A DNA stretch of 23,921 nt, taken from a virus. How positions within the stretch are numbered: the stretch's first letter is position 1; every line of letters begins with the position of its first letter. Shown piece after piece: positions 2,277-22,685 of this stretch. A program made the translations under genes and the position numbers. The notes under the pieces were generated by a model. That model saw nothing but the letters and a program-made list of their open reading frames with translations. It was not told the DNA's origin and made no database searches. The DNA is taken from positions 1 to 23,921 of the IMG/VR virus record IMGVR_UViG_3300009156_000443. One strand, written 5' to 3'.

Positions 2277-4012
2277 TACAGCAACAGGTCCCTGATGATG
2301 CGGTACGCCGCGATGTCCCCGCCCGTGATGCCGGCCGCCGCGACCGCCTTGCGGATGGCGTCTTCTTCGTCGGACTGCGTGAAGGTGTCCTCCTTGCGGA
2401 CCTTGGTCAACTCGGTCTGCGCCATGCTGATCGCCGCGTCCAGCTTGTCTCCGAGACTGTCGACGATGTTCATGACCTCTGACGGCGTGCCAAGCGACTC
2501 GGGCGGGTCGACGTGGAAGATGTCGTTGTAGTCCTGACGCGACGCCTCTTCATTGGCCTTCGTCGCGGCGTCCATCGCGGCGATCCGGTCCCTGGTGTCC
2601 TGCGCCGCCTGCGCCTCGGCGGCCTTGTCGTCGCTCTCGGCCCCGGTGATCTCTTCGCCAGCGGTGGGCTGACCGGTGAGCGACTGCTGGATGTCGTAGG
2701 CGGTCATGCCGGGCTTGATGAGCTGGTCGTAGCCGAGGGCGTTGGCGACATCGGCGTCGGTGAAGTCGTAGCCCTGCTCGCGCAGCCGTTGGGCGGCGAT
2801 CTGCGCGGCGAACTGGGCGGCCGTGCCCGCGTACGGGTTGGTGCCGTACTCGGGGCGGCCCGTCGTCGGGTTGATGCCGGCCTGGTAGGGCTGGCCGAGC
2901 AGCTTGGTCCCGACGTCCTCGGGCGTCTCGAACCCGCCGGGCGCGCCGGCGATGAGGTTCTGCTCCTCGGTGGAGTAGCGGCCGAGCTGCCGGGGCGACA
3001 GGATGCCGGCGGGCCCCCGCACGATGTTGCGCTCGCCGGCGGCCTCGCCGATCTGGCCGACCTGCCCGTAGGACTGCTGCGCCTGGCCGAGCAGGCGGAG
3101 GATCTTCTCGTAGCCCTGCTGCGCCTGAGGGCCGAACTGCTCGGCCTCCGTCGGCCGCCCGGCCGCCCGCGCCGCGATGTCCTGCACCGCCCGGCGGGCT
3201 CCACCCGTCGGATCGTTGAACGTCGAGCGCCCGGCCAAGCGGTCGTTCTCCCGCTGGATCGCGGCCTGCAACAGCTTGGCGGCGAACGTCTTGACGTCAC
3301 CCTCGGTCTGCGCCGTCTTCTGCTGGCCGACGACGAACGGGTTGAGCGTGCTGCCGATGCGAGTCCCGATGTCCTTGGCGCCCTGCTGGCTCTGGATGTC
3401 GGCGCGCAGCTTGTCGCCGAGCCCCCCGAGGTAGTCCCCGACGCCGGCGCCGAGCATCCCGCCGAGCTGGCCCTGCGACAGCTTGGCGTCCTCGGCGGCG
3501 GCCTTGGCGGCCTCTTGCTGCTGCTGGATCTGCCACGCCTGGAAGCGAGCCGCCATGTCCGCCTTGGTCAGGTCGAGGTTGGCCATGATCTCGTCGATGC
3601 GCTGCTGGCCTTGCAGCCGGAGCTGGCTCAACTGAAACTCGTTCTGCGCCCGAATCGGGGCGACGGTCATCTCGACCTGCTGGGGGATGAAGGAGCGGGC
3701 CGCGTTGACCGAGTGCTCGTAGTCGGCCATCCGCTGATCCCGCGCCGCCATGTCGGCCTGGTAGGCGGCCTGCGACTGCGTCAGCGAGGCGATCCCCTGG
3801 TCGTACGGCCCCGTGATCGTCGAGCTGATCGACGGCACTGCCCCCGCCGGCGCGCCACGGAGCGCGGCCTCTTGCATCGCCTGCTGCACCGCCTGCTGAC
3901 GCTGGGCTTGCAGATCGGCCTTCGCCGCGTTGTAGGCGTCCACGCCGGCCTGGCCCCCCTTGGCCTGCGCGGCGAGCAGGGCGGAGTCGGCGGCTGGGAT
4001 CGGATCGGCCAT
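2276..4012 (-). CDS. Gln/Ala-rich coiled-coil virion protein (hypothetical)
   Basis: This 578 aa protein starts with ATG at 4012, next to the stop of the upstream lysin gene, and its stop overlaps the next start (TAATG). Roughly the first 190 residues are dominated by Gln, Ala, Arg and Asp in long predicted helices or coiled coils. A short Gly-rich stretch (GGMLGAGVGDYLGGLGDKL) follows, then more helical sequence and an acidic C-terminal third. I see no enzymatic motif, signal peptide or membrane segment. In short-tailed phages, large helical Gln/Ala-rich proteins at this position are often internal core or ejection proteins, and I infer a similar role here. No gene name is justified. Confidence 0.8.
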   Translation of the reverse strand: MADPIPAADSALLAAQAKGGQAGVDAYNAAKADLQAQRQQAVQQAMQEAALRGAPAGAVPSISSTITGPYDQGIASLTQSQAAYQADMAARDQRMADYEHSVNAARSFIPQQVEMTVAPIRAQNEFQLSQLRLQGQQRIDEIMANLDLTKADMAARFQAWQIQQQQEAAKAAAEDAKLSQGQLGGMLGAGVGDYLGGLGDKLRADIQSQQGAKDIGTRIGSTLNPFVVGQQKTAQTEGDVKTFAAKLLQAAIQRENDRLAGRSTFNDPTGGARRAVQDIAARAAGRPTEAEQFGPQAQQGYEKILRLLGQAQQSYGQVGQIGEAAGERNIVRGPAGILSPRQLGRYSTEEQNLIAGAPGGFETPEDVGTKLLGQPYQAGINPTTGRPEYGTNPYAGTAAQFAAQIAAQRLREQGYDFTDADVANALGYDQLIKPGMTAYDIQQSLTGQPTAGEEITGAESDDKAAEAQAAQDTRDRIAAMDAATKANEEASRQDYNDIFHVDPPESLGTPSEVMNIVDSLGDKLDAAISMAQTELTKVRKEDTFTQSDEEDAIRKAVAAAGITGGDIAAYRIIRDLLL

Positions 4013-6642: not shown

Positions 6643-6948
6643 CTAGGCCGGGTCCTGCGGCCAGTGCGCTTGCACGGCGGCTTCGATGTTGGCGTCGGTG
6701 ATGATGTCGACGTCGTGGCCGGGAGCCCCGCGGCCGGCGATGAGCGCCGACTCGTAGGCGTCCTCGTAGTCGATGGCGACCGGGCCGATGAGCCGATCGC
6801 CGGCGACGTACGGGTTGGCGACCACCTGTTGCCCGAACACGGTGTCGCCGAACGTCGGGTTGTTGAGGGCCTGCTGCAAGGACGCCGAGATCACCCGGTC
6901 CTTGAGCTGCTGGTCCTGAATCGCCCGCTGGATGGAGCTGTAGCTCAT
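6643..6948 (-). CDS. Small hypothetical virion-operon protein
   Basis: This 101 aa protein starts at ATG 6948 and overlaps the stop of the fibre gene by four bases (ATGA). A GGAGG Shine-Dalgarno sequence sits just upstream. It ends two bases before the lysozyme-like gene. The N-terminal ~30 residues look helical ([20 protein letters not shown]), followed by a mixed, acidic remainder. I do not recognise the family. Its place between fibre and lysins suggests a structural or assembly role, by context only. Confidence 0.75.
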
Positions 6949-8342
6949 GCGGCCTCCAATGCCTCGACCTTCTGTTCGAGCGTCTCGATGCGCGCCAGCG
7001 CGTCCTGCAACGCCGCGGTGAGCAGCGGCACGAGCCGGGCCTGGTCGAGCTGCTGGGGGACGATCTGGCCGTTGGCGTCGACGGCGTCGCGCTCGCCGTT
7101 GACGGCGTCGGGCACGACCTCGGCAACCTCGTCGGCGACGAACCCGTCCTGCTGTGTGTCGTCGACCTTCCACGCGAAGTGCCACACCTTGAGCCGCTTC
7201 ACCCGCTCGGCGGCGCCCTCGACGGGGGCGATCAACCGCTTGAGACGACGGTCGGACGTGGTGAGGTACTGCACGCCGGGCCCGGACACCAGGTTGATGC
7301 CTCCGACGATGGTGGCCCCGGTACCGATGCGGAAGCTCATGTAGGTCTCGCCGGCGAGGTTGGCGCCGCCGATCTTGTTGGCCCAGTAGTTGATGTTGGG
7401 GGTGGCGTTGACGGTCGAGACGACGACGCCCTGGGGGCCTTGCAGCTCGATGCCGAGAGCCCCCGCGGTGGCGGACGTGGTCTTGCCGAGCAGGAGCGCG
7501 CCGGCGTTGTCGAGACGCATCGCCATCGTGCCGCCGGCGCCGGGGTCCTGCGCGGTGTCGGAGTGGGTGCCGCCGCGATGCCAGGCAAAGCTGTGCGGCG
7601 TGCGCTGGTACAGGTGGTTGGTCTGCACGCCGATGCCGTAGGTGGTCGTCCACAGGTTGATCATCTGGCGCAGCACGTTGCCGAGGAACACGCTCGCCGA
7701 CCCCGACATGCTGAGATCGCCCGTCATCGTGTCACCGGTGATGTCGACCCATCGATCGATGAGCGCGGCGAGCGCCGTGGCGTCGATCGACAGGGTGCGG
7801 TCGGCGCTGAGATCGCCGCCACCCAGCAGCGGCGACGTGGTGTTGATGCGCCGCGTCGCCGGGACACCGCCGCTGCCACCGCTGGACGACACGATGGGCC
7901 GCGTCGGATCGGTCGAGTCGACGGTGACGTTGGTGCCGGCGACAACGGCCTGGACGACGCCGGGCGCCCCGGTGGGACCCTGGCTGCCGGTGTCGCCCTT
8001 GGGGCCCTGCGCGCCGGCGGGGCCCTGCGAGCCGGTGGCGCCGGGCGGGCCCTGCGAGCCGGTGGCACCGGTGTCGCCCTTGGGTCCCTGCGGACCCTGG
8101 GGTCCGGGCACCGTGGAGTCGGCCCCCGGCGGACCTTGCGCACCGGGCGGCCCGACCGGCCCCGGCGGACCTTCGGGACCGGGGACACCGGTGCCGGCCA
8201 GGTCGTACACGACGCCGAGGAAGTCCTCCAACTCGCGGTCGCGGATCTCGTGGGCGGCGGCGAGCATCTGGCCGCGGTCCTCGGCCAGGTTCTTGCCGCG
8301 CAGGCCGTACTGGAACGGGAGCGGGTTGATCTTGTTGCTCAC
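6945..8342 (-). CDS. Collagen-like tail fibre/spike with S74 intramolecular chaperone
   Basis: The start is GTG 8342, overlapping the previous stop as GTGA with GGACGGAG upstream; the product is 465 aa. Residues 1-50 form a helical N-terminal anchor. Residues about 52-128 are an uninterrupted collagen-type Gly-X-Y tract rich in GPQGP and GPKGD. Residues 130-355 look like beta-rich fibre ([21 protein letters not shown]). Residues about 358-465 are a peptidase S74 / endosialidase chaperone: TSDRRLK with the predicted Ser363/Lys368 self-cleavage dyad, [15 protein letters not shown], and a final coiled coil ([16 protein letters not shown]). The chaperone trimerises the fibre and is then released by autocleavage. 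It is the likely receptor-binding fibre; which part meets the host surface is not visible. Confidence 0.92.
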
Positions 8343-9847
8343 GTCCGCTCCGTCCTCACGTTGCACAGCACGACGACCTCGCGGATGGCGATGCCCGAGA
8401 TCCGGGGAAACTCGATCTGGAAGCCGTTGCCCCAGCCCTGCGCCCCGAAGTTGCACCGCCACGAGTCGTCGCGACCGCCGGCCGGCGAACGCTCACAGGG
8501 CTCATCCCAATACTGGATGTCGCCCTCTTGCATCCCCCGCCCGTAGGGACCGAGAGCGTTGACCCGGAGCTGGATCTGGTTGCGCGAGTTGTCGAGCCCG
8601 CTCGGCCACTTGCGGAACTGCACGATGACGCCACGCACCTGCACCTGCCGGCCGATCGGCTCGTAGTAGGCGGGGAGCACGACCGTGCCGGCGACCAGGC
8701 CGCCGACGCCGTAGTCCATCGGCGAGGCGAACTGGTCGTCGTTGTGGCCGGGACGGTCGAGCCCGTGGTGATACGAGACGATCACCGGGACCTCGCCGAC
8801 GGTCTGCGGGGCGACGACCGCGTAGACGACGTCGGGCGGCAGATTGGTGCCGTCGAGCACGTCGCCGGGCACGATCCCGCTCACCTTCTTGGTGAACAGG
8901 TGGCGACTCCACGCCTGGTTTGACCACGACAGGACTTGCGTCCCGGTGTCGATGTCGTTGGCCATGATCATGCGCCGGCGGGTCGGGGTGACCACCACGC
9001 TGTCGCACGGGAACGGCGACGAGCGCGTGTCGACCTGCTGCGCCTCGTCGAGGAACACGCGCTCCCCGTTGAACCACGCCGGGCGCGCCTCGGCCGGCCA
9101 GTACAGGATGCGGTTATCGGTGGTGACGGTCGTCGTGCGCGGGTCCATCGGCCCGAGCCCGAGCGCGATGCCGCGCACGCTGGCCAACGTGCCGAGCACA
9201 CCGGAGACCGCGTTCCACCCCGACCGCTTGCCGACGAAGAGGGTGTTGAAGATCGGGTTGAGCGACGTGATCGCTTCGGTGCCGCCGACGTCGAGGTAGT
9301 CGTTGGCGCCCCACGTGTCGTAGTGGGCGCCGGTCGAGTCGACGGTCGAGTACCAGATCCGCCACGGGATGTTGGAGTCGACGGCGACGAAGTAGAAGCC
9401 CCACCGCACGATGTCGCTGAACGGCGCCGGGGTCGTGATGACGACGGTGCTGGCCGGACTGGCGTGCTTGTAGAGCCGGCCGTTGCACAGCGAGTAGACC
9501 ACCCCGGCGCCGAGCACGAGCCGCACCGGCGAGTTGGGGTTGGGGTTGTCCGGGTAGGCCGTCCACGGCGTCGCCGCCCCGCCGGTGAGCGGGATGTCGT
9601 AGCCCTTGTTGAGCCAGATGACGAGCTTGTCGAAGGCCGACCAGAACGCCAACGGGCCGGGGACGATCGGATGGTTGGGCAGCCCGGTGGTCGGCAGGTA
9701 CTTGAGCCCGGCCCGCACGCCGAGCAGCCCCGACGTGTACGGGTAGACGTTGGTCCCCGAGTACGTGTTGGCCTCGGCCCGCGCCGGGTCGCGGCTGCCG
9801 TAGTCACCGCCCGCAAAGTCGGCGTACCGAACGGTGAAGTCGGGCAC
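8339..9847 (-). CDS. Tail nozzle-like / tail tubular-like virion protein
   Basis: This 502 aa, beta-rich protein opens with [20 protein letters not shown] and [20 protein letters not shown], then repeats short beta segments of the kind seen in propeller-like tail proteins ([40 protein letters not shown]). There is no transmembrane segment or enzymatic motif. It follows the adaptor gene directly (its start abuts that stop) and precedes the fibre gene. In podoviruses this slot holds the second tail tubular or nozzle protein that closes the tail and carries fibres. The functional call comes from order, size and beta character. A different structural protein is possible. Confidence 0.7.
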
Positions 9848-12719: not shown

Positions 12720-13523
12720 CTAGGTGGCGGTTCGGCGCTCCTTGAGGAAGGCGTCGGTCGCCTTCTTGGCGTCCTCGATGTTGGCGATCAGCGGCGGCGC
12801 GGCCTGGCCGGCCATCCCACCGATCGGTGACGGCATGGGCCGGACGCCCGAGGCGCGCCCGGCGACGTAGTCGTCGATGATCTTCTGTTCACGGGCCCTC
12901 TGCATCTCGATCGCCTTCGGGATGTCCCCGCCCGTGTAGTGGTTGGCGTCGTAGAGGATCTGGAACCCGTCGCCCTCCGGGTCATAGCCGGCGGCGCGGA
13001 CCTCGGCGTAGATCTCGTTGATGGCGCGCTGCTCGGCAGCGGACCGCTCGCGGGCCCCGAGCGTCTCGTTGATCATCGTCTGGACCTGGTCCGGCGAGAG
13101 CTGACCCTGGATCTCCTTGACGGCGTCGTCGAGCGTCGGCGGCGGCAGCGTCTCGGCCGGCGGCGCCGCCGGGGTCTCGGGGCCGAGCATCGAGTTGGCG
13201 ACCTCGCGCATCATCGCCGCCGACATCATCGGGTCCTGCCGCCAGGCCCGCGCCAGGTCGAACCACGCCTCTACATCTTCGGGCTCGTAGTCGCCGTAGA
13301 CGTCGGTGTACTGCTTGGCCTGGTCGCGGTACTTGGCTGCCTCGGTGCGGATGCGGTCGACGTAGCCGCGGGTGAAGACGGCCTGGTCGTCGGGCGGCGG
13401 AGCCAACGGATCGTCGGGCGCTCCCGCCGGCTGGGCGGTAGCCGGCGGGGTCGCCGCCGGTGCGGGCTCCGGCTGCGAATTGAAGGTCGGCGCGCTGTCG
13501 GTGGTGAGCCCGTTGTCGCTCAT
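12720..13523 (-). CDS. Capsid scaffold protein
   Basis: This 267 aa acidic protein starts at ATG 13523 with AGGGAG upstream and overlaps the portal stop (ATGA). Residues 1-48 are Pro/Ala-rich and disordered. The middle is helical with many charged residues (YVDRIRTEAAKYRDQAKQY; LSPDQVQTMINETLGARERS). The C-terminus is short and basic (ATDAFLKERRTAT), as in scaffolds that contact the capsid protein. The order portal, scaffold, capsid is the classic head module. Assignment rests on order, composition and helical character, as scaffold sequences are rarely conserved. Confidence 0.8.
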   Translation of the reverse strand: MSDNGLTTDSAPTFNSQPEPAPAATPPATAQPAGAPDDPLAPPPDDQAVFTRGYVDRIRTEAAKYRDQAKQYTDVYGDYEPEDVEAWFDLARAWRQDPMMSAAMMREVANSMLGPETPAAPPAETLPPPTLDDAVKEIQGQLSPDQVQTMINETLGARERSAAEQRAINEIYAEVRAAGYDPEGDGFQILYDANHYTGGDIPKAIEMQRAREQKIIDDYVAGRASGVRPMPSPIGGMAGQAAPPLIANIEDAKKATDAFLKERRTAT

Positions 13524-15655
13524 TGGACGCTCCCTGGCGGTGCGGCTTCCGGCCCCTCAGGCGGTGGGCCTGGCGGGGGGCCGAGGGGTGGGCCGCCGGG
13601 CGGTGGAGGCGGTGGTCCTCCCCCGGCCCCGAGGCCGACGGCGTTGATCTGTGCTTCGACTTCCGGGGGAAGCGACCCTTCCTGGCCGAGCATCTGGCCG
13701 GGCGACGCCGGACCGGCCGGACCCATCGGCGACGTCGCCGTGCGCGGCACCATCAGCCCGGCCGCCTGCGCCCCGGCAAGATCTTGCGTCGGCAACGGCT
13801 TGGTCCCGGTCGAGGGCAGCATCGCGGCGAGCGGGGACACGCCGAGCGCCTGGACCTGTTCGGCCGCTGCGCCGGCGGCGTACATCTCGTGCGCCTCGCA
13901 GTGCTTGCGCATGAGCATCTGCGTCTGCGGGTCGAGGTAGTCCCAGCGGTCGGAGCGCTGGAAGTCCCGATGCACCTTCAAGTGGTTCTGGTGGTCGTCG
14001 ATGATGTCGACGGTGCGCGGCGTGCCGATGGCCAGCCACCGGTTCTCCCGCTGCGCCCGCGCCGTGTCCGGGTCGATCCCCGACAGCAAGTCGTCTTGGT
14101 CGGGCAGGTCGGCGACCTTGGCCAGCTCGTACGGCGTCTTGATGATCCCCCGGTCGTAGAGCTGCATGGCGTAGGCGGCCTGCGCCGCCCGACTCCGGGG
14201 CAGTACGGCGTCGAGCGGCACCGTGGCCTCCGTCTGACCGCCGAGGTCACCGCCCGACCATTGGACGGCTTCGGGAATCTCGTTGACGTAGATCGTCGAG
14301 GCGCGGGTCTCTTGCACGTTGGCCTCGTACAGCTTGAGCACCATCGACGCGGCCCGCCCCCAGCACTCGCCGAGCGTCTTGGCCAGGGCGCCGACGGGGG
14401 TGTCGTCGTTCTCCGACAGGATCGACAGGGCGATGCCCGACTCGATGCCCGACGGCGACTCGCCACGGCTGACGTCGTGCACGCCCAGGATGTCGTCCAT
14501 CGCCGCGCCGAGCATCTCGGGCTGACGAATCCACCAGTCCGGCATCGCCGGCGGCGCATCCCAGTTGGGCTTCTGGCCGTTGATCGGGTTGTACTCGATG
14601 AACTCGCCGGGCGTGTCGGTGAGATCCTCCATGTCTTCGATCGCCCCGGTCGGCACCCAGCACCGGGCGTTGCCGGCGAGCTTCAAGTGCTCGACGATCG
14701 ACGACCACGACGCGTTGAGGAGGGCCTGCACACCGACCGCGTCAGAGACCGGGGTGTGCCCGTACCAGCGCCCGTGGATCGGCTCGACCCGCCCGATGCT
14801 GATGTTGAGCCGGTCGTTCCACGGGAACGGCCACATCCCACCGTCGACGAACTCGCCGTCGACCACCGTCAGGACGCCACCGGGCCGGCCGGTCAGCGAC
14901 GGACGCTCGTAGTAGGTGAGCACCATCGACAGCGGCACGTTGCGCCACGTCTCGCCGTCGGTCACCCGCCACACCGTGTCGATGGCGCGGGCGTCGGCCT
15001 TCGGTTCTTTGGCCAGCCCGTACAGCTCCTTGACCTCGGCCGGCGGCATGGCGATGCCTTTGATCCACCACTGCGCCCGTTCCAAGTCGCGGGTGCCGGG
15101 CTCGCACGCGATCTCGTGGATGGACACCGTCGAGAGCCGACAGTCACCGGTGCCGACCGGCCGCCCCTGCGCATCCATCCCGATCGGCGCCCCGACCCGC
15201 TGGTCCCATTCGACGCACAGCCCGGCGATCCCGGCTTCCCACACCAACTGGGCGTGTTCGAGGCGCAGCACTTCCCACGACTGCTTGCGCTGCGCCTGCA
15301 CGAGCGCCGCCTCGGCGATGCGCGCCGCTTGGATCGCGGCGTCGTCGGGCGACGTCGGGATGACATCGAAGACGAGCGCCCGACGCATCAGCTTGGCGAT
15401 GATGCGACGCGAATCCGGGCCGACTCGGGGGACGGTCGCCCGGACCCGCGTCGGCTCACGCGGCAGCTCTTCGAGCCGCCCGGAGGCACGGTTCCAGTAG
15501 ATCCAGTGCTTGTTGCGCAGGAACATGGCGTTGACGGCCGCCTGCTCGCGCTCCGTCCTCGTCGACCGCAGCGAGTTGTCCCACTTCTCCCGGATCACCG
15601 CCGGCGTCAGCGGCTTGTCGTCGCGGGCGATCGGCTGGGAGTAGACGTCAGACAC
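13520..15655 (-). CDS. Portal protein
   Basis: I place the start at GTG 15655, which overlaps the preceding stop by eight bases (GTG TCTGA). Upstream in-frame sequence is only shadow of the gene at 15648-15881. The product is 711 aa. The first ~600 residues have the composition of podovirus-type portals: WDNSLRSTRTEREQAAVNAMFLRNKHWIYWN near the N-terminus, then GRWYGHTPVSDAVGVQALLN, VEHLKLAGNARCWVPTGA and ILGVHDVSRGESPSGIESGIAL, a clear portal signature. The C-terminal ~100 residues are Pro/Gly-rich, with runs of Pro, and are probably flexible. The dodecameric portal forms the DNA channel and the docking site for terminase and the adaptor. Confidence 0.88.
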   Translation of the reverse strand: MSDVYSQPIARDDKPLTPAVIREKWDNSLRSTRTEREQAAVNAMFLRNKHWIYWNRASGRLEELPREPTRVRATVPRVGPDSRRIIAKLMRRALVFDVIPTSPDDAAIQAARIAEAALVQAQRKQSWEVLRLEHAQLVWEAGIAGLCVEWDQRVGAPIGMDAQGRPVGTGDCRLSTVSIHEIACEPGTRDLERAQWWIKGIAMPPAEVKELYGLAKEPKADARAIDTVWRVTDGETWRNVPLSMVLTYYERPSLTGRPGGVLTVVDGEFVDGGMWPFPWNDRLNISIGRVEPIHGRWYGHTPVSDAVGVQALLNASWSSIVEHLKLAGNARCWVPTGAIEDMEDLTDTPGEFIEYNPINGQKPNWDAPPAMPDWWIRQPEMLGAAMDDILGVHDVSRGESPSGIESGIALSILSENDDTPVGALAKTLGECWGRAASMVLKLYEANVQETRASTIYVNEIPEAVQWSGGDLGGQTEATVPLDAVLPRSRAAQAAYAMQLYDRGIIKTPYELAKVADLPDQDDLLSGIDPDTARAQRENRWLAIGTPRTVDIIDDHQNHLKVHRDFQRSDRWDYLDPQTQMLMRKHCEAHEMYAAGAAAEQVQALGVSPLAAMLPSTGTKPLPTQDLAGAQAAGLMVPRTATSPMGPAGPASPGQMLGQEGSLPPEVEAQINAVGLGAGGGPPPPPPGGPPLGPPPGPPPEGPEAAPPGSVQ

Positions 15656-17604: not shown

Positions 17605-19179
17605 TCACATCCTTCCGAGCACGGGGTGGTAGCGATGTCGGCGGTCGCGTTTGCGGAGCTGTTCCCACGCCCGATCCGACAGGGTTTCGGGTTCGCTGCG
17701 CACCTTGCGGGGGTGCACGGTCCGCTTGGCCAGCTCGGCCGCGGCGTAGGCGAGAACGTCGACCTGGTCGTCGTGGGCGGCGACCGGGAAGCTGACGACC
17801 TCGTCGAGGAACTCGGGCAGCCACGACGCGTTGCGCGGCAGGTACACCCGCCCGGCGTCGACGATGGCCTCCGCCGTCTCGGCGCGGGCGATCTTGTTCT
17901 TGTCCGGCGTCAACCAGCGCACCACGACTCCGCGGCGCTGCACGTCGGACCACAGCGACAGCGTCGCCATCTGCTTCTCGATGCCGACCCACGCCGGGCG
18001 CCACTGGTCCCACATCGACTGGATCAGCGGGGCGTGCTCGGCGTGCTCGACCCGCACGCGCCGGAGGTCGAGTAGCAGCAGCGCGTGCGGGTCGGTGGGG
18101 GCGACCGCCCACACGGCGCACACCGTGTAGTCGGAGCGCTTGGAATGGCTGAACGCCGGGTCCATCGTGGCGAACCGCCAGCATTCCCGGTCGTCGACGA
18201 CGTGGTCGTCCAGCGTGTAGAAGGTCTCGTCGTCCTTGGTCTGCGCCGACCAGTAGCGGAACGACCCTTTGCGGAACATGCCGCCACCGACGGGGATGGG
18301 CCGCTGCTGGTACATCGCCGCCCAGGCCGTCGGCCCGACGTCGGTGCGGATGCCGGCGAGTGCTACCTCGTCGAACCGCTCGGGGCACAGCGCCCGCCCC
18401 GGCGCCCGGCCCAGCGAGTCGTCGTCTTCGGCGATCGCCGGCATCCGCAGACGCTTGATCCTCATGCCGGTTTCGGCGGCGACGAGGCGGGCGATCAGGT
18501 CATCTTCATGCCAGCGGGACATGATGACGATGACCTTGCCGCCGGGCTCGCGCCGGGTCAGAAAGACCGACTGCCACCATTCCCACAGGTGATCACGCAT
18601 GACCGGCGACTGCGCCTCTTCGACGTTCTTGATCGGGTCGTCGACGATCATCAGGTGGCCGCCTTTGCCGATGATCGGTCCGCCGGCGCCGGCGGTGCCC
18701 ATCCCGCCGTCTTCGCCGATCAGGTCCCAGCGGTGCGACGCCCGCGACGTCTGGTCGATCTGCACCCCGAACCGGGGCCCGTGCTCGGCGACGATCTCGC
18801 GGGCCCGCCGGCCGTGGGTGGCGGCGAAGTCGGCCTCGTAGGAGGCGAGCAGCACCCGCCGGCGATGCTTGGTGATGAACCACGCCGGCGTCCACCGGCT
18901 GCACAGCTCGGTCTTGCCGTGACGGACGGGCTCTTCGACGATCAGGCAGTCGCATTCATCCCGCTCGACCATCCCGACGATGGCGTCGGACGTCTCGACC
19001 AGGTGCCGGTAGGGCTGCCAGAGACCCCGTGACAGGCGCGCCGCATAGTCGGCCGGCGTCCGCAGGGTCAGCGCGGCGTCCGCGGCGGTGACGATCGCCG
19101 CGTACTGCTCGGGCGGCATCCGGTCGATGTCTTCGTCGGTGAGCGAGGAGACCGCGTCGAGCAGGTCGGTGGTCTCCAT
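17605..19179 (-). CDS. terL: Terminase large subunit
   Basis: I choose ATG 19179 (524 aa); the frame extends upstream but only into the divergent promoter region and HTH gene. The ATPase half shows a Walker A variant EEPVRHGKTE (residues 82-91), Walker B LMIVDDP (176-182) and the coupling motif SRWHEDD (221-227). The nuclease half shows ATMDPAFSHSKRSDYT with Asp340, VGIEKQ with Glu401 and AAHDDQVDVLAYA with Asp470/471/474, the acidic cluster of the RNase H-fold. The protein pumps DNA into the prohead and cuts it. No small terminase is recognisable beside it. It is the first gene of the leftward late operon. Confidence 0.95.
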   Translation of the reverse strand: METTDLLDAVSSLTDEDIDRMPPEQYAAIVTAADAALTLRTPADYAARLSRGLWQPYRHLVETSDAIVGMVERDECDCLIVEEPVRHGKTELCSRWTPAWFITKHRRRVLLASYEADFAATHGRRAREIVAEHGPRFGVQIDQTSRASHRWDLIGEDGGMGTAGAGGPIIGKGGHLMIVDDPIKNVEEAQSPVMRDHLWEWWQSVFLTRREPGGKVIVIMSRWHEDDLIARLVAAETGMRIKRLRMPAIAEDDDSLGRAPGRALCPERFDEVALAGIRTDVGPTAWAAMYQQRPIPVGGGMFRKGSFRYWSAQTKDDETFYTLDDHVVDDRECWRFATMDPAFSHSKRSDYTVCAVWAVAPTDPHALLLLDLRRVRVEHAEHAPLIQSMWDQWRPAWVGIEKQMATLSLWSDVQRRGVVVRWLTPDKNKIARAETAEAIVDAGRVYLPRNASWLPEFLDEVVSFPVAAHDDQVDVLAYAAAELAKRTVHPRKVRSEPETLSDRAWEQLRKRDRRHRYHPVLGRM

Positions 19180-19231
19180 CGGTACGCACGATGACACGAG
19201 GGGTTGACGGGATGCAACGATCGGCAGCAGC
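19180..19231. promoter_or_regulatory. Divergent intergenic region between late and early operons
   Basis: These 52 bases separate the terminase start (leftward) from the HTH gene start (rightward), so any promoters for the two blocks lie here or inside the neighbouring genes. A TTGACG occurs at 19204-19209 on the plus strand and a TTGCAT on the minus strand, but neither has a convincing -10 partner. This suggests activator- or phage-polymerase-dependent control. Confidence 0.4.
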
Positions 19232-19465
19232 ATGGCGAGAATGGAGACACACGACGTGCGCAGCGGACGCCAGGGACGCGACTGGATCACCAGCAAGGAG
19301 GTCGCCTCCCTCCTCGGCATCTCCGTCTTCACGATCCGCTCGTGGCGCCACCGCGGCGTCGGCCCGCCGGTGTACCGGATGAACTCGGCGATCCGCTACG
19401 ACCGCGAGGAAGTCCTCGACTGGCACGCGGCGTGCCGCCTTGAGGGCAAGGCCGCCGGCCAGTGA
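19232..19465 (+). CDS. Excisionase/MerR-type helix-turn-helix DNA-binding protein
   Basis: This 77 aa protein could start at ATG 19232 or 19241. The HTH is clear: WITSKEVASLLGISVFTIRSWRHRGVGPPVYR, followed by the wing and RYDREEVLDWHAA, the standard helix-turn-helix-17/excisionase layout. Such proteins act as excisionases, transcription regulators or DNA-bending factors. It is the first gene of the rightward block and faces the terminase gene across 52 bp, so it is well placed to control the early/late boundary. The next gene overlaps its stop (GTGA). Confidence 0.85.
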   Translation: MARMETHDVRSGRQGRDWITSKEVASLLGISVFTIRSWRHRGVGPPVYRMNSAIRYDREEVLDWHAACRLEGKAAGQ

Positions 19466-19749
19466 CCCTCTTCGACGCCTCCCCGTACGGCCCCGAGCGA
19501 CGTCTCCGCCAACGCAAGCCCCGCCCCGACGAGATCCGCCTGGATCGACCGTGGGTCCTGCTCCGCTCCCACGGCCGGCCGCCGATGGCCCACCTGCTGG
19601 CCGACATCTTCAAGCCGAACGAGCGCGACCGCCTGGCCGCGAAGAACGGCGGGGTCCGCGCCGTCTGCGGCCACTACGGGATGCCGATGGAGGTCGACGG
19701 CCACCCGATGGCCTTCTTGTGCCACGCCTGCTGGGACCACTTGACGTGA
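19462..19749 (+). CDS. Small Cys/His-containing protein (hypothetical)
   Basis: This 95 aa protein starts at GTG 19462 (GTGA overlap). It opens with TLFDAS, faintly like the PLFDS tag of the downstream array, but has different codons. The middle is basic. The C-terminal half (VRAVCGHYGMPMEVDGHPMAFLCHACWDHLT) has C..H and CHAC groups that could form a small zinc site. I do not recognise the family. Confidence 0.78.
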   Translation: MTLFDASPYGPERRLRQRKPRPDEIRLDRPWVLLRSHGRPPMAHLLADIFKPNERDRLAAKNGGVRAVCGHYGMPMEVDGHPMAFLCHACWDHLT

Positions 19750-19934
19750 TCTCGGAGGACCGCTTCGACGACATCGAGCGCGAGCTACGGTCGTTGCGCC
19801 GGGAAGTATCTGGCCTGGTCGAGGACATCGCCGAGCTGTTCGAGCAGCACAGCCGCCTCAGCCACCGTTTCGAAACCCTCAGTGCCGGTACAACGATGCA
19901 ACCAGGCGGTGCCGACCGCAACCCCAGCGCATAG
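19746..19934 (+). CDS. Small coiled-coil protein
   Basis: This 62 aa protein starts at GTG 19746, overlapping the previous stop as GTGA. Residues about 3-45 form an acidic heptad-like helix (DRFDDIERELRSLRREVSGL, then VEDIAELFEQHSRL), followed by a Gly/Thr-rich tail. The function is unknown. It closes the first rightward gene group; a probable promoter follows. Confidence 0.68.
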   Translation: MISEDRFDDIERELRSLRREVSGLVEDIAELFEQHSRLSHRFETLSAGTTMQPGGADRNPSA

Positions 19935-19942
19935 GTCGCGTC

Positions 19943-19970
19943 TTGCGTTGCTGGTTGTGGCGGCTATTCT
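19943..19970 (+). promoter_or_regulatory. Probable sigma-70-like promoter for the small-gene array
   Basis: TTGCGT (19943-19948), a 16-bp spacer and TATTCT (19965-19970) lie just after a gene end, in the only real gap upstream of the array. GTG codons begin 5 and 8 bases past the -10, the spacing expected for leaderless transcripts in actinobacteria. TTGCGT recurs as -35 in a second candidate promoter at 23199. Confidence 0.5.
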
Positions 19971-19975
19971 GCGCC

Positions 19976-20101
19976 GTGGTGGTGGGTGACAACACCGGCG
20001 GGCAGTTGGGGGACCTCGCCAAGAGCCACATCCCGGTCCAGACCCCGCCGGGCACCAGCGATCGACCGCCCGAGGACACCGCATGGACGGTGCCCCCTTG
20101 A
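19976..20101 (+). CDS. Candidate leaderless 41-aa peptide (uncertain)
   Basis: Three consecutive GTG codons (19976, 19979, 19982) open a short frame that ends at TGA 20099-20101. The peptide (VGDNTGGQLGDLAKSHIPVQ, then a Pro/Thr-rich end) has no known motif. Support is its position at the predicted transcription start and the absence of another gene in this gap; no ribosome site is visible. It may be simply leader RNA. Confidence 0.35.
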   Translation: MVVGDNTGGQLGDLAKSHIPVQTPPGTSDRPPEDTAWTVPP

Positions 20102-20127
20102 TCCGCCTGTGGAGGGAGAACCCACAC

Positions 20128-20292
20128 ATGGACGACCACGACCTAGACCTCGTCGCGCCCGACGCCATGCTCGATCTGCTCCGCCGCGAGATCGCCGCCA
20201 TCCACACCTTCCTGGACCGCACGTTCGCCGGGTACCAGACCGAGCTGGCCGAGATCTTCGCCGAGATGGAGGCCGCCGATGGAGAAGGCTGA
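20128..20292 (+). CDS. Small helical protein heading the tag-gene array
   Basis: I choose ATG 20128 because GGAGGGA lies about ten bases upstream; an in-frame ATG at 20083 would add 15 residues without a ribosome site. The 54 aa product is acidic and helical (PDAMLDLLRREIAAIHTFLD, then QTELAEIFAEMEAADGEG). It lacks the PLFDS tag but overlaps the first tagged gene by 14 bases. Function unknown. Confidence 0.7.
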   Translation: MDDHDLDLVAPDAMLDLLRREIAAIHTFLDRTFAGYQTELAEIFAEMEAADGEG

Positions 20293-20404
20293 CGAACCGC
20301 TGTTCGATAGCGACGACGCTGCGTTCCCTAACTGGACCGTCGAGTGGGCACGCCTCGTCCCGATCCTGCGCGCCCTCCTTGCAGCGAGGTCCGAGCGTGG
20401 CTAA
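20279..20404 (+). CDS. PLFDS-tag small protein 1 (helical body)
   Basis: This 41 aa protein starts at ATG 20279, after GGAGG inside the previous gene. Its tag is ADEPLFDS at residues 4-11, with Ser as AGC rather than TCC. The body (WTVEWARLVPILRALLAARS) is one amphipathic helix. The TGA that ends the upstream gene lies inside the GCTGACGAA of this tag. Function unknown. Confidence 0.72.
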   Translation: MEKADEPLFDSDDAAFPNWTVEWARLVPILRALLAARSERG

Positions 20405-20540
20405 CAAACCGCTGTCCATCAGCGAGGACGGCCCGCCCCGAGAGCTGGTCATCGCGGTGGAGTACCTCGTGGACGACTACGGACTCGACGCCGTGCGCGC
20501 CGCCGTCGATGAGCTGATCGCGTGGTACGCCAATGGCTGA
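20397..20540 (+). CDS. PLFDS-tag small protein 2 (divergent tag, helical body)
   Basis: This 47 aa protein starts at GTG 20397 and overlaps its neighbour by eight bases (GTGGCTAA). The tag is the most divergent in the array, NKPLSIS, but keeps CCGCTG for Pro-Leu. The body is helical and acidic (ELVIAVEYLVDDYGLDAVRA, then AVDELIAWYANG). Function unknown. Confidence 0.7.
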   Translation: MANKPLSISEDGPPRELVIAVEYLVDDYGLDAVRAAVDELIAWYANG

Positions 20541-20694
20541 CGAACCGCTGTTCGATTCCCTGCACTACGAGCGCTGCACCGATCCCGAGTGCCCGGTCGC
20601 CTACGCCTACCGCGACCCGTACCCCGCGGTCGATCACTGGCACTACACCGGCCCACCCGCGCCACAGCCCGACCGGTGGTCCGATGTCACCTGA
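20533..20694 (+). CDS. PLFDS-tag small protein 3 (Cys/His, aromatic body)
   Basis: This 53 aa protein starts at ATG 20533; ATGGCTGA overlaps the previous stop. It carries a consensus tag (ADEPLFDS). The body is Tyr/Pro-rich with CTDPEC and HWHY, possibly a minimal metal site. It has no clear Shine-Dalgarno sequence, so it may depend on translational coupling. Function unknown. Confidence 0.72.
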   Translation: MADEPLFDSLHYERCTDPECPVAYAYRDPYPAVDHWHYTGPPAPQPDRWSDVT

Positions 20695-20854
20695 GCAGAA
20701 CCCTGATCCGCTGTTCGATTCCTGGTCGCGCTGCCCCGACTACTACGACGGTCCGCCAGGCGCTGACTCGCGCGGCACGCACACTTGCGACCGCGAGCGC
20801 GGCCACCGCGGCCCGCACCACTGCCCACGATGCGGGAAGGCATGGGATGGGTGA
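20684..20854 (+). CDS. PLFDS-tag small protein 4 (zinc-ribbon-like body)
   Basis: This 56 aa protein starts at ATG 20684 with an 11-base overlap. The tag is NPDPLFDS at residues 6-13 (GAT in place of GAA before CCG). The body carries C..D-rich segments, HTCDRERGHRGPHHCPRCGKAW, with a C-terminal CPRCGKAW that looks like half a zinc ribbon. Four Cys and several His could bind one zinc. Function unknown. Confidence 0.74.
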   Translation: MSPEQNPDPLFDSWSRCPDYYDGPPGADSRGTHTCDRERGHRGPHHCPRCGKAWDG

Positions 20855-21011
20855 GAACGCTGAACCGCTGTTCGATTCCCCCACCGAAGCTCAGTGGGCG
20901 ACATGCGACGACGTGCTCGACTGGTTACGCCTTGCCGTTGCTGACGAACCGGGCGAGCGCGACGACGTGGAACGCGTGCGCGACATCCTTGACCGCGTGA
21001 TGAGGGGATGA
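20847..21011 (+). CDS. PLFDS-tag small protein 5 (helical body)
   Basis: This 54 aa protein starts at ATG 20847 after GGAAGG and overlaps the previous stop by eight bases. Its tag DNA is an exact 18-bp consensus copy (20862-20879). The acidic helical body reads DDVLDWLRLAVADEPGERDD, then VERVRDILDRVM. A competing ATG at 20842 opens a different frame without the tag and is not preferred. Confidence 0.73.
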   Translation: MGENAEPLFDSPTEAQWATCDDVLDWLRLAVADEPGERDDVERVRDILDRVMRG

Positions 21012-21014
21012 CGA

Positions 21015-21227
21015 ATGGAACCGCTGTTCATCAGCGACCGCCACGCGCTCTACGTCGGGTGGGTCGCGGGCATCGCGTCCAAGCACGGGCTCGACGTGTC
21101 GCTCGTCGTCAACGACGAGGGCACGGGCTACACCAACCGCATCACCGTAAGGACGCCGAAGGGCGTCGCCATCACCGTCGTGGTGCCGCCACCGCCCGAG
21201 GAATGGACGGTCCACGATGACGAGTAG
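21015..21227 (+). CDS. PLFDS-tag small protein 6 (beta-rich body)
   Basis: This 70 aa protein is the only array member not overlapping its predecessor (3-base gap), with GAGGGG upstream. The tag follows the start codon at once (MEPLFIS) and is degenerate at its end. The body looks alpha/beta: LYVGWVAGIASKHGLDVSLV, then VNDEGTGYTNRITVRTPKG and VAITVVVPPP. Function unknown. Confidence 0.75.
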   Translation: MEPLFISDRHALYVGWVAGIASKHGLDVSLVVNDEGTGYTNRITVRTPKGVAITVVVPPPPEEWTVHDDE

Positions 21228-21408
21228 CCCTGACGAACCGCTGTCCGATACCCGCGCCGTGCGCCTACTCCGGGCCAAGGCCAGCGAGCTGGAACGTCAG
21301 GTCAAGCTCCACGCCGACCGAGGCGACGACCGGTACTGGATGTTGGCCGACATCGCACTCATCGCCGCGCTGCTGGCCGACGAGATCGAGAGGCGCAGCG
21401 ATGGCTGA
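21217..21408 (+). CDS. PLFDS-tag small protein 7 (helical body)
   Basis: This 63 aa protein starts at ATG 21217 with an 11-base overlap. Its tag is DEPLSDT, with TCC for TTC and ACC for TCC. The body is two helices (AVRLLRAKASELERQVKLHA and MLADIALIAALLADEIERR), a hairpin-like layout. Function unknown. Confidence 0.74.
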   Translation: MTSSPDEPLSDTRAVRLLRAKASELERQVKLHADRGDDRYWMLADIALIAALLADEIERRSDG

Positions 21409-21583
21409 CGAACCGCTGTTCGATTCCCGTTCGCGGATCACCTATCGCGCCGACAACGGGACGACCATCGTCATCGAGGTTCCGTGGCGCGAGGTCGACA
21501 TCATCCCGCCACCGTCGATCCCGTTCGTGGACAGCATCACGAAGCGGACCATCGTCTACAGCTACGAGGCGACGAATGCCTGA
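21401..21583 (+). CDS. PLFDS-tag small protein 8 (beta-rich body)
   Basis: This 60 aa protein starts at ATG 21401; ATGGCTGA overlaps the previous stop. The 5' end matches that of gene 3 for the whole tag region, including the codons before it. The body is beta-rich (RITYRADNGTTIVIEVPWRE, then PFVDSITKRTIVYSYEA). Function unknown. Confidence 0.74.
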   Translation: MADEPLFDSRSRITYRADNGTTIVIEVPWREVDIIPPPSIPFVDSITKRTIVYSYEATNA

Positions 21584-21770
21584 GCGCGATGTTGAACCGC
21601 TGTTCGATTCCGACACGGTGACCGCCATCCGCAAGGTGCTGTCACGCGCTCACGATCTGATCGTGGATGCTGCCCTGCCCGACGGAACCGTCCATGTCCC
21701 CGAGTCCGTCATGCCCGCGCTCGATGCGATCGCTGACGCCATGCGAGAGGTCACCGCCCTTGGGAAATGA
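21576..21770 (+). CDS. PLFDS-tag small protein 9 (helical body)
   Basis: This 64 aa protein starts at ATG 21576 after GAGG; ATGCCTGA overlaps the previous stop. The tag (VEPLFDS, residues 6-12) is encoded by an exact consensus copy. The body is helical (AIRKVLSRAHDLIVDAALPD, then VMPALDAIADAMREVTALG). Its own TGA lies within the next tag copy. Function unknown. Confidence 0.74.
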   Translation: MPERDVEPLFDSDTVTAIRKVLSRAHDLIVDAALPDGTVHVPESVMPALDAIADAMREVTALGK

Positions 21771-21933
21771 ACCGCTGTTCGATTCCCGGTGTGAGTGCTG
21801 CGACGAACCGGGCGCGACCGTCCGACTGTGCGAGGACGACGAAGCCGTCGCTCTGTGCGACGGGTGCGTCGCCATGCTGACGCCGTCCGGTCCGTGGTCG
21901 CCGTGGGCGGGAACGGAGCTGCACGATGCCTGA
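21760..21933 (+). CDS. PLFDS-tag small protein 10 (zinc-binding body, TTG start)
   Basis: This 57 aa protein starts at TTG 21760, with GAGAGG upstream and an 11-base overlap. No ATG or GTG start places the conserved tag at the N-terminus, so the tag decides the start. After GNEPLFDS the body reads RCECCDEPGATVRLC, then ALCDGCVAML, with two Cys pairs that likely bind zinc. Function unknown. Confidence 0.72.
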   Translation: MGNEPLFDSRCECCDEPGATVRLCEDDEAVALCDGCVAMLTPSGPWSPWAGTELHDA

Positions 21934-22120
21934 AGATCGAATCGTTCCGCTGTTCGATTCCGGCGAGATGGCCGTGCTGCGCGACTGCGTGGCGGCGGCG
22001 ATCGCGGACCTGGCCGTGAGGATCGACATGCACGGCGGCATGGACCAGGCCCCACCACTGGCACGCGAACACTGGGATGCCCTCGTCGCCCTCGCGCCCA
22101 AGGTGGGGCTCGACCTGTGA
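21926..22120 (+). CDS. PLFDS-tag small protein 11 (helical body, last of array)
   Basis: This 64 aa protein starts at ATG 21926 after GGAG; ATGCCTGA overlaps the previous stop. The tag is IVPLFDS at residues 6-12, with GTT in place of GAA before CCG. The body is helical (EMAVLRDCVAAAIADLAVRI, later ALVALAPKVGLDL). The next gene starts in its stop (GTGA) and has no tag, so the array ends here. Confidence 0.74.
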   Translation: MPEDRIVPLFDSGEMAVLRDCVAAAIADLAVRIDMHGGMDQAPPLAREHWDALVALAPKVGLDL

Positions 22121-22272
22121 TCGAGCTGACCCTCATCATCCTCGCCGGCACCCTCATCTTGGACGTCGCCCTCGAATGGTGGCGGGACGCCGACCGGGTC
22201 CGCCGCCGGCGCGAGATCGAACACGACCGCGCCGAGATGCGCCGCACCCTGCACCGAACGAGAGGACACTGA
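22117..22272 (+). CDS. Small membrane protein
   Basis: This 51 aa protein starts at GTG 22117, overlapping the last tag gene stop as GTGA. Residues 2-19 are a hydrophobic helix (IELTLIILAGTLILDVAL), followed by an Arg/Glu-rich cytoplasmic-looking helix (RVRRRREIEHDRAEMRRTL). It is likely anchored in the host inner membrane. Function unknown. Confidence 0.7.
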   Translation: MIELTLIILAGTLILDVALEWWRDADRVRRRREIEHDRAEMRRTLHRTRGH

Positions 22273-22406
22273 TGGACAAACGCCAGCACTACGCCCTCAC
22301 CCACCCACTCGACGAGTACCACATGGACCGCATCGCCACCTGCCGACGCACCCGCGACCTCGGCGGACAGACCTGGTCGACGACCATCCTCGCCGTCGAC
22401 CGTTGA
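22272..22406 (+). CDS. N-terminal part of a gene split by in-frame TGA
   Basis: This 44 aa frame starts at ATG 22272 (TGATG overlap) and ends at TGA 22404-22406. The same frame then continues without another stop as an apparently coherent protein to 22685 (next entry). The end of this part (QTWSTTILAVDR) leads smoothly into ARLNDGEPVWHVST after the stop, so one 137 aa ancestral protein is likely. A single CGA-to-TGA change would explain it. Confidence 0.6.
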   Translation: MDKRQHYALTHPLDEYHMDRIATCRRTRDLGGQTWSTTILAVDR

Positions 22407-22430
22407 GCACGCCTCAACGACGGCGAGCCC

Positions 22431-22685
22431 GTGTGGCACGTCTCCACCAGCCTGCAACGCACCGGCGACTTCCTCATCGCCCCCGAACGCTGCGAACGCA
22501 TCGCCATCGACTTGCTCGCCGGCGTCGGCGGTGACATCGAATGGTGGCTCCCCGCCGGCGAAGGCAACCTCGCCGTGACCCACCTGCGGGTCCCGACGAC
22601 ACCAGCCGAGCAGCTCCTCATCCCGCCGGGCCTGGTGACGATGGACGCCGGCCTGACCGGCCCGATGCGCCCCCGCTCCACCTGA
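22431..22685 (+). CDS. C-terminal part of the TGA-split gene
   Basis: This frame could restart at GTG 22431 (84 aa), but the coding signal begins right after the TGA at 22404, with ARLNDGEP preceding the GTG. The sequence WHVSTSLQRTGDFLIAPERC and GDIEWWLPAGEGNLAVTHLR is a coherent alpha/beta protein. No ribosome site is evident before the GTG. It may be the tail of a pseudogene, an independently translated piece, or part of a read-through product. Function unknown. Confidence 0.55.
   Translation: MWHVSTSLQRTGDFLIAPERCERIAIDLLAGVGGDIEWWLPAGEGNLAVTHLRVPTTPAEQLLIPPGLVTMDAGLTGPMRPRST

Follow-up and report, generated by a model that had tools for sequence, protein, structure and literature searches.

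We analysed a viral DNA of 23,921 bases (IMG/VR record IMGVR_UViG_3300009156_000443, here called the window and probably a fragment), in which eleven consecutive tiny genes begin with the same short coding sequence, the tag, placed in front of unrelated bodies. The array probably consists of small accessory phage genes that are kept as exchangeable cassettes, with the tag as the in-frame junction at which they are exchanged. The tag is shared at the DNA level, tagged genes recur in seven contigs, and near-identical cassettes were found re-ordered between two of these contigs with their edges at the tags.

The array of tagged genes

The eleven open reading frames (ORFs) lie on the plus strand at 20279-22120 (Table 1). 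In all of them the tag peptide ends at residue 13 at the latest; it reads PLFDS in eight genes and PLSIS, PLFIS and PLSDT in the remaining ones. At the DNA level the tag is an 18-bp repeat with the consensus GAACCGCTGTTCGATTCC, which in frame encodes E-P-L-F-D-S. When up to three mismatches were allowed, nine matches to the consensus were found in the window against 0.04 expected by chance, and none of 100 shuffles of the window reached this number. At the same threshold no copy, antisense or second-site, was found outside the array on either strand of the window. Repeat detection on the window recovered all 11 copies, and shuffling the residues of each protein placed the motif within the first 13 residues in at most 2 of 10,000 trials. 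The ORFs, the DNA repeat and the shuffling thus bear out the eleven consecutive tiny genes with a shared N-terminal tag that were described in an earlier note on this DNA.

Ten of the eleven starts overlap the preceding stop, often as ATGnnTGA, and the other one lies 3 nt beyond it; by these overlaps the genes look translationally coupled. The tag sits 3-21 nt past the start codon in the window, and up to about 36 nt past it in L264, one of the further contigs described below. It thus stands at the edge of each body and yet within the ORF, after the start codon. The starts of genes 3 and 8 share 28 bp of exact identity.

The bodies behind the tag are indeed unrelated, as had been claimed. All-against-all BLASTP among the 11 bodies gave no convincing similarity, the best pair being genes 6 and 8 with E = 0.004. 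For the bodies of genes 1-10, nothing reached the cut-off in a scan of Pfam and nothing was significant in a scan of PHROGs. Judged only by how large they are, how diverse and where they lie, the bodies are probably an assortment of proteins for host takeover or counter-defence.

Recurrence of the tag and re-ordering of cassettes

When 2.9 million viral contigs were scanned, with DNA patterns of the tag among the queries, tagged genes were found in six further contigs (L002, L124, L264, L274, L317 and L323). This brought the total to 36 tags over seven contigs, the window included; all of the array contigs are metagenomic, and some are fragments. L323 comes from a relative of the window phage: when translated, segments of the portal and terminase of the two are 62-84% identical. 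At the same place as the window array it carries seven tagged genes with different bodies, so that an array does recur in a related phage, which the earlier note had proposed as a check. The tags of L323 have drifted to EPPFNA, EPPSDC, EPPFNS, EPLFNC, EPLFNS, EPPFIT and EPPFIS. Bodies were also found to recur together with the tag: L124 gene 1 resembles L264 gene 1 (59% identity over 51 residues, E 3e-16), and L264 gene 4 resembles L323 gene 1 in the translated contig comparison.

Neither the tag DNA nor the bodies of L323 had a match in the isolate phages searched. The terminase relatives L006, L007 and L008 had no array in the stretch covered, and no arrays were found in L301-L307, which were retrieved by a degenerate peptide pattern. 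In bacterial genomes, 33 exact 18-mer matches were all single and in no array, and were taken as chance. A scan of the loci for start-located coding repeats with at least four copies returned only the window type and one doubtful case, L304.

The guanine plus cytosine (GC) content and the mycobacteriophage-like genes suggest that the hosts are Actinobacteria, and L274, with 49% GC, may have a different host. The two tagged genes of L274 (3757-4118) are located in a stretch of 59% GC, among the top 5% of windows, which hints at an origin in a higher-GC phage.

The tag is separable from the body. The body of L264 gene 2 matches small mycobacteriophage proteins (best E 8e-7), and its homologs in Alma, EniyanLRS and CELFI have no tag and start with MSWLEHMKTMLGKQV..., MIVSDVCTLLGKRV... 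and MWSVRQSNWTEHMRSLLGEQV..., indicating that the tag goes with the locus rather than with the protein family. Homologous bodies lacking the tag, which the earlier note would have counted against its view, thus exist for this body; for the 11 bodies of the window no homologs were found among 50,697 isolate phage records.

Movement of cassettes was observed between L317 and L323, two contigs of the same metagenome (3300020005) whose DNA otherwise has almost no similarity in the compared stretches. The two contigs have in common block A (170 bp, 98.8% identical), block P (168 bp, 99.4%) and block T (164 bp, 97.6%), which are ordered A-P-T in L317 and P-A-T in L323. Their other similarity amounts to weak matches of 103 and 36 bp (75-86%) and tag-sized pieces. 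In the junction alignments, block A starts at the first base of a tag and ends inside a tag, and block P ends at the last base of a tag; in L317, block P also starts at the last base of its tag, where L323 has about 40 bases absent from L317. Block T starts inside a tag and ends inside the next one. Body A is preceded by MTDE-PLFNS in L317 and by MPEPGME-PLFNS (MPEPGMEPLFNS) in L323. What precedes the tag moves together with the cassette upstream, and what follows it moves with the body. The proposal that one common 5' cassette is joined to many small proteins was thereby strengthened, since arrays recur elsewhere and the join itself was seen moving.

Three further kinds of structure are by-products expected of exchange at the tag. 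Cassette P is frame-shifted in L317 and intact in L323. In L264, the ORF at 2482-2526 on the minus strand has 14 codons (MANEPLFDSGGEGS) and is almost only tag, its stop overlapping the ATG of an HNH-like gene. Fused ORFs, each carrying two tags, were found in L002 and L317.

According to the mechanism that we propose, a cassette would run from the tag through the body to the start of the next gene and the tag of that gene. A crossover within the tag would swap the body in frame and preserve the stop/start overlap needed for coupling, because the tag lies behind this overlap. Cassettes could be cut and re-joined at the tag in this way both between and within phage genomes, and it would be repeated exchange, not a need for the peptide, that maintains the uniformity of the tag. 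Homologous annealing of the short tag by RecT-like proteins together with an exonuclease is our preferred route for the exchange, since RecT-like annealing proteins are encoded in three of the array contigs (L323, E 3e-25; L317, E 2e-34; L124, E 1e-37). L124 also has a gene for an exonuclease, and L323 has genes for a RecE-like exonuclease and for a Holliday junction resolvase. Redbeta needs a segment of at least 23-27 bp to pair efficiently, and phage recombinases of the Rad52-like kind work on short, divergent homology (PMC3945230). With its neighbouring bases, the tag provides 20-28 bp of exact identity between some copies.

Several points weigh against exchange at the tag as the explanation of the array. 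In most pairs of tags the exact identity extends over less than 20 bp, which is below the Redbeta minimum; between such pairs, exchange would be rare or would depend on neighbouring similarity. No recombinase gene was identified in the window contig, which is probably a fragment. The re-ordering comes from one contig pair of one metagenome, and a chimeric contig could still account for it, but the 1-4 mismatches per block argue against this. The last tag position uses two serine codon families, TCC and AGC, which leave room for some selection on the peptide, and the tag might serve in translation, or as a peptide, and still be used as a junction.

Table 1. Tagged genes of the window and features in their neighbourhood.
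Feature	Coordinates	Strand	Product and remarks	Tag
Tagged gene 1	20279..20404	+	41 aa, MEKADEPLFDS...	20294-20311, GAACCGCTGTTCGATAGC
Tagged gene 2	20397..20540	+	47 aa, GTG start, MANKPLSIS...	20406-20423, AAACCGCTGTCCATCAGC
Tagged gene 3	20533..20694	+	53 aa, MADEPLFDS...	20542-20559
Tagged gene 4	20684..20854	+	56 aa, MSPEQNPDPLFDS..., Cys/His-rich body	20705-20722
Tagged gene 5	20847..21011	+	54 aa, MGENAEPLFDS...	20862-20879
Tagged gene 6	21015..21227	+	70 aa, MEPLFIS...; sole non-overlapping start (3 nt gap)	21018-21035, GAACCGCTGTTCATCAGC
Tagged gene 7	21217..21408	+	63 aa, MTSSPDEPLSDT...	21235-21252, GAACCGCTGTCCGATACC
Tagged gene 8	21401..21583	+	60 aa, MADEPLFDS...	21410-21427
Tagged gene 9	21576..21770	+	64 aa, MPERDVEPLFDS...	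21594-21611
Tagged gene 10	21760..21933	+	57 aa, TTG start, MGNEPLFDS..., Cys-rich body	21769-21786
Tagged gene 11	21926..22120	+	64 aa, MPEDRIVPLFDS...	21944-21961, GTTCCGCTGTTCGATTCC
Untagged gene before the array	20131..20292	+	MDDHDLDLVAPDAMLDLL..., overlaps the start of gene 1; resembles the pre-array gene of L323 by eye only	
Flanking gene	19462..19749	+	MTLFDASPYGPERRLRQ...; counterpart VSEHALFDAEPFGPDPRPKRVRKPRPQEVRLAKPWVLL... at the same place in L323	
Terminase large subunit	17605..19182	-	Marker for finding relatives	

Some observations were made beside the array. A second short sequence, TCCGATTCC or TCCGATAGC (Ser-Asp-Ser), has further copies in L264 (minus strand, near 3232, 2684 and 3391) and in L002 (14132). 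Its copies are located some 25 nt ahead of the next start, at the upstream gene's end, or immediately after a tag, and it is possibly a second, shorter repeat at the 3' ends of cassettes. The ORF at 22272-22685 of the window contains an in-frame TGA at 22404 (TILAVDR-TGA-ARLNDGEPVWH), and a similar ORF of L323 (7322-7774) is interrupted at roughly the corresponding position, by a TGA at 7481 (LTINTGYE-TGA-IEEGYGGPVWH). In both, the frame stays open for about 90 codons past the TGA, with weak similarity after the stop (BLASTP E 0.004); readthrough, recoding or two decayed genes are possible. At 6945-8462 on the minus strand, the window encodes a tail-type protein with collagen-like Gly-x-y repeats and a C-terminus resembling an intramolecular chaperone. 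L002 and L317 are similar to the window segment just after this gene.

Conservation of the tag and alternative explanations

The window tags are more uniform than their peptide alone would predict. Their mean DNA identity was 0.85 against 0.72 expected from the peptide with the codon usage of the array, a result reached in none of 20,000 resamplings. At the consensus positions Glu and Asp are invariably encoded by GAA and GAT, whereas the bodies favour GAG and GAC; one window tag carries Asp in place of Glu. Shared ancestry of the copies could equally yield such uniform DNA. Over the 36 tags, the information content per site dropped from 1.48 bits inside the tag to 0.34 on its upstream side and 0.22 on its downstream side, giving the tag sharp edges. 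Tags within a genome were more alike than tags of different genomes, with 16 of 5000 permutations reaching the observed difference, as homogenisation would give.

Conservation at the nucleotide level would also be expected of an expression signal, namely a translation or regulatory element located after the start, with swapping as a by-product. Such an element might be a reinitiation enhancer or the site of an RNA- or DNA-binding phage regulator comparable to RegA of T4. This explanation fits the occurrence of one tag per gene, near the start, always in a coupled stop/start setting and on one strand only. Nevertheless, complementarity to actinobacterial 16S ribosomal RNA was not above that of shuffled controls, with a longest complement of 7 nt. 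Most of the seven copies tested were without stable local RNA structure (z-scores 0.9 to -2.0), and the inverted repeat GAAC-N4-GTTC, with arms of 4 bp, is complete in 27 of the 36 tags and shows no two-sided compensatory change. The spacing between tag and start codon varies. The array has no promoter-like site, no sigma-70-like promoter having been found in 19900-22450, and it contains no convincing terminators. We consider an expression signal rather unlikely as the main explanation of the tag.

An origin of the tag in the T-arm of a transfer RNA, which GTTCGATTCC resembles, was tried as well and dropped, as there was no matching stem.

That E-P-L-F-D-S acts as a signal for docking to one common partner, for targeting or for processing, an idea raised in the earlier note, appears improbable. 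The peptide keeps a constant frame and an N-terminal place, with only two internal copies, both in fused ORFs; it is retained on the homologous bodies of L124 and L264; and the two serine codon families at its end are unrelated. A constant frame is, however, equally expected from in-frame joining to coding sequence. The ratio of nonsynonymous to synonymous differences (pN/pS), taken as uncorrected pairwise proportions over tags that are not independent, was 1.17 over the 36 tags and 1.10 over the 25 distinct forms, compared with 0.40 for the L124/L264 body pair, a clear contrast. The three codon positions of the 36 tags carried 1.61, 1.30 and 1.52 bits; the second, which has the most weight in determining the amino acid, is thus the least conserved. 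Interchanges of Leu with Pro and of Phe with Ser are common among the tags, and Asp, Asn and Ile interchange too. The 14-aa ORF of L264 with hardly anything but the tag and the tagless homologs of the L264 gene 2 body also speak against a peptide signal. These data fit maintenance or homogenisation at the nucleotide level but do not fit a constrained docking peptide, and the suggestion of a docking or capsid-targeting peptide was not upheld. The sliding clamp fared no better as the partner: the tag does not have the Gln-x-x-Leu-Phe type of core, as Gln is found in one of 36 tags and several tags have Pro in the place of Leu or Ser in that of Phe.

The junctions at one short sequence would also agree with integron-like, site-specific exchange, in which a dedicated recombinase would use the tag as its core site. 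The L323 contig carries genes for a serine recombinase and a tyrosine integrase, and directly before the array of L002 a 92-aa protein (13449-13727) has a marginal match to Pfam 'Recombinase' (E 0.0006, below the cut-off). The 36 copies, however, fall into 25 distinct forms, and the inverted repeat is just 4 bp. In the parts of the array contigs that were read, no recombinase shared by all of them was found, and the two enzymes of L323 resemble the usual integrases or invertases of phages and lie away from the array. We regard this kind of exchange as very unlikely.

Recent tandem duplication with fast divergence of the bodies would account for the same orientation, similar gene size and identical starts, but it is hardly credible, as the bodies differ in composition and have no convincing common residues past the tag, the third-position bases of the tag are almost unchanged, and cassettes were observed moving between phages.

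Relation to known systems and significance

A close likeness to an exchange junction is found in the conserved boundary (linker) sequences at the module edges of mosaic phages, which have been proposed to guide homologous recombination; junctions at such short sequences are an accepted possibility but are usually not seen (PMC3029335). As with boundary sequences, one and the same short sequence, here with 36 copies over seven contigs, marks the edges of modules in more than one phage, and exchanged modules end at it, as the block edges of L317 and L323 show. The tag differs in being present in many copies in one operon, in coding in frame, and in separating single tiny genes.

The start-associated sequences (SAS/ESAS) of cluster K mycobacteriophages include a 13-bp sequence, 5'-GGGATAGGAGCCC, immediately upstream of the start codon (PMC3203893). 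The tag resembles SAS as a short asymmetric repeat, mostly in one orientation, at the starts of small genes of different families, but it lies downstream of the start, is coding, and is unrelated in sequence. The PeSLs of T4-type phages, mobile regulatory cassettes, were reportedly described by Arbiol et al. in 2010 (cited in PMC4177764). They are said to be composed of intergenic promoter and stem-loop modules. With them, as with the tag, small genes of variable regions are shuffled by way of a short element present in several copies; in contrast, the tag is coding, its genes overlap, and no promoter or consistent stem-loop was found.

In the T4 internal proteins, too, one short N-terminal sequence, the capsid-targeting sequence, is found on several otherwise unrelated small phage proteins. 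It is a conserved peptide that the head protease cleaves, but the amino acids of the tag vary at least as freely as its silent sites. Like the tagged genes, integron gene cassettes form an ordered array of small genes that lack promoters and change their order at a repeated site. Unlike integron cassettes, they have no attC-like structured site (a 4-bp inverted repeat only), and the tag is within the ORF. No IntI-type recombinase was found beside the array, several of the contigs being fragments, and the phage integrases of L323 are located elsewhere. The present case stands apart in that its junction is coding and in frame and occurs in many copies, within an operon whose tiny genes overlap.

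It is an old and continuing dispute whether phage mosaicism is guided by short boundary sequences or results from random joining followed by selection (PMC3029335; PMC3945230). An explicit, repeated, in-frame boundary at the place of crossover makes this question directly testable. It is possible, though not probable, that the tag is more than a junction that happens to be used and has evolved for exchange. Phages of this group would then maintain, at the start of each accessory gene, a coding linker dedicated to this use and in frame, into which new small genes from other phages are plugged and at once translated by coupling. If this is true, the tag would be a device for evolvability, with the recombination enzymes of the phage itself serving it. 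The tag also gives a caution, that shared N-termini of phage proteins need not be functional peptides, and it offers a search handle for pools of co-moving tiny phage proteins with candidate functions in host takeover or counter-defence.

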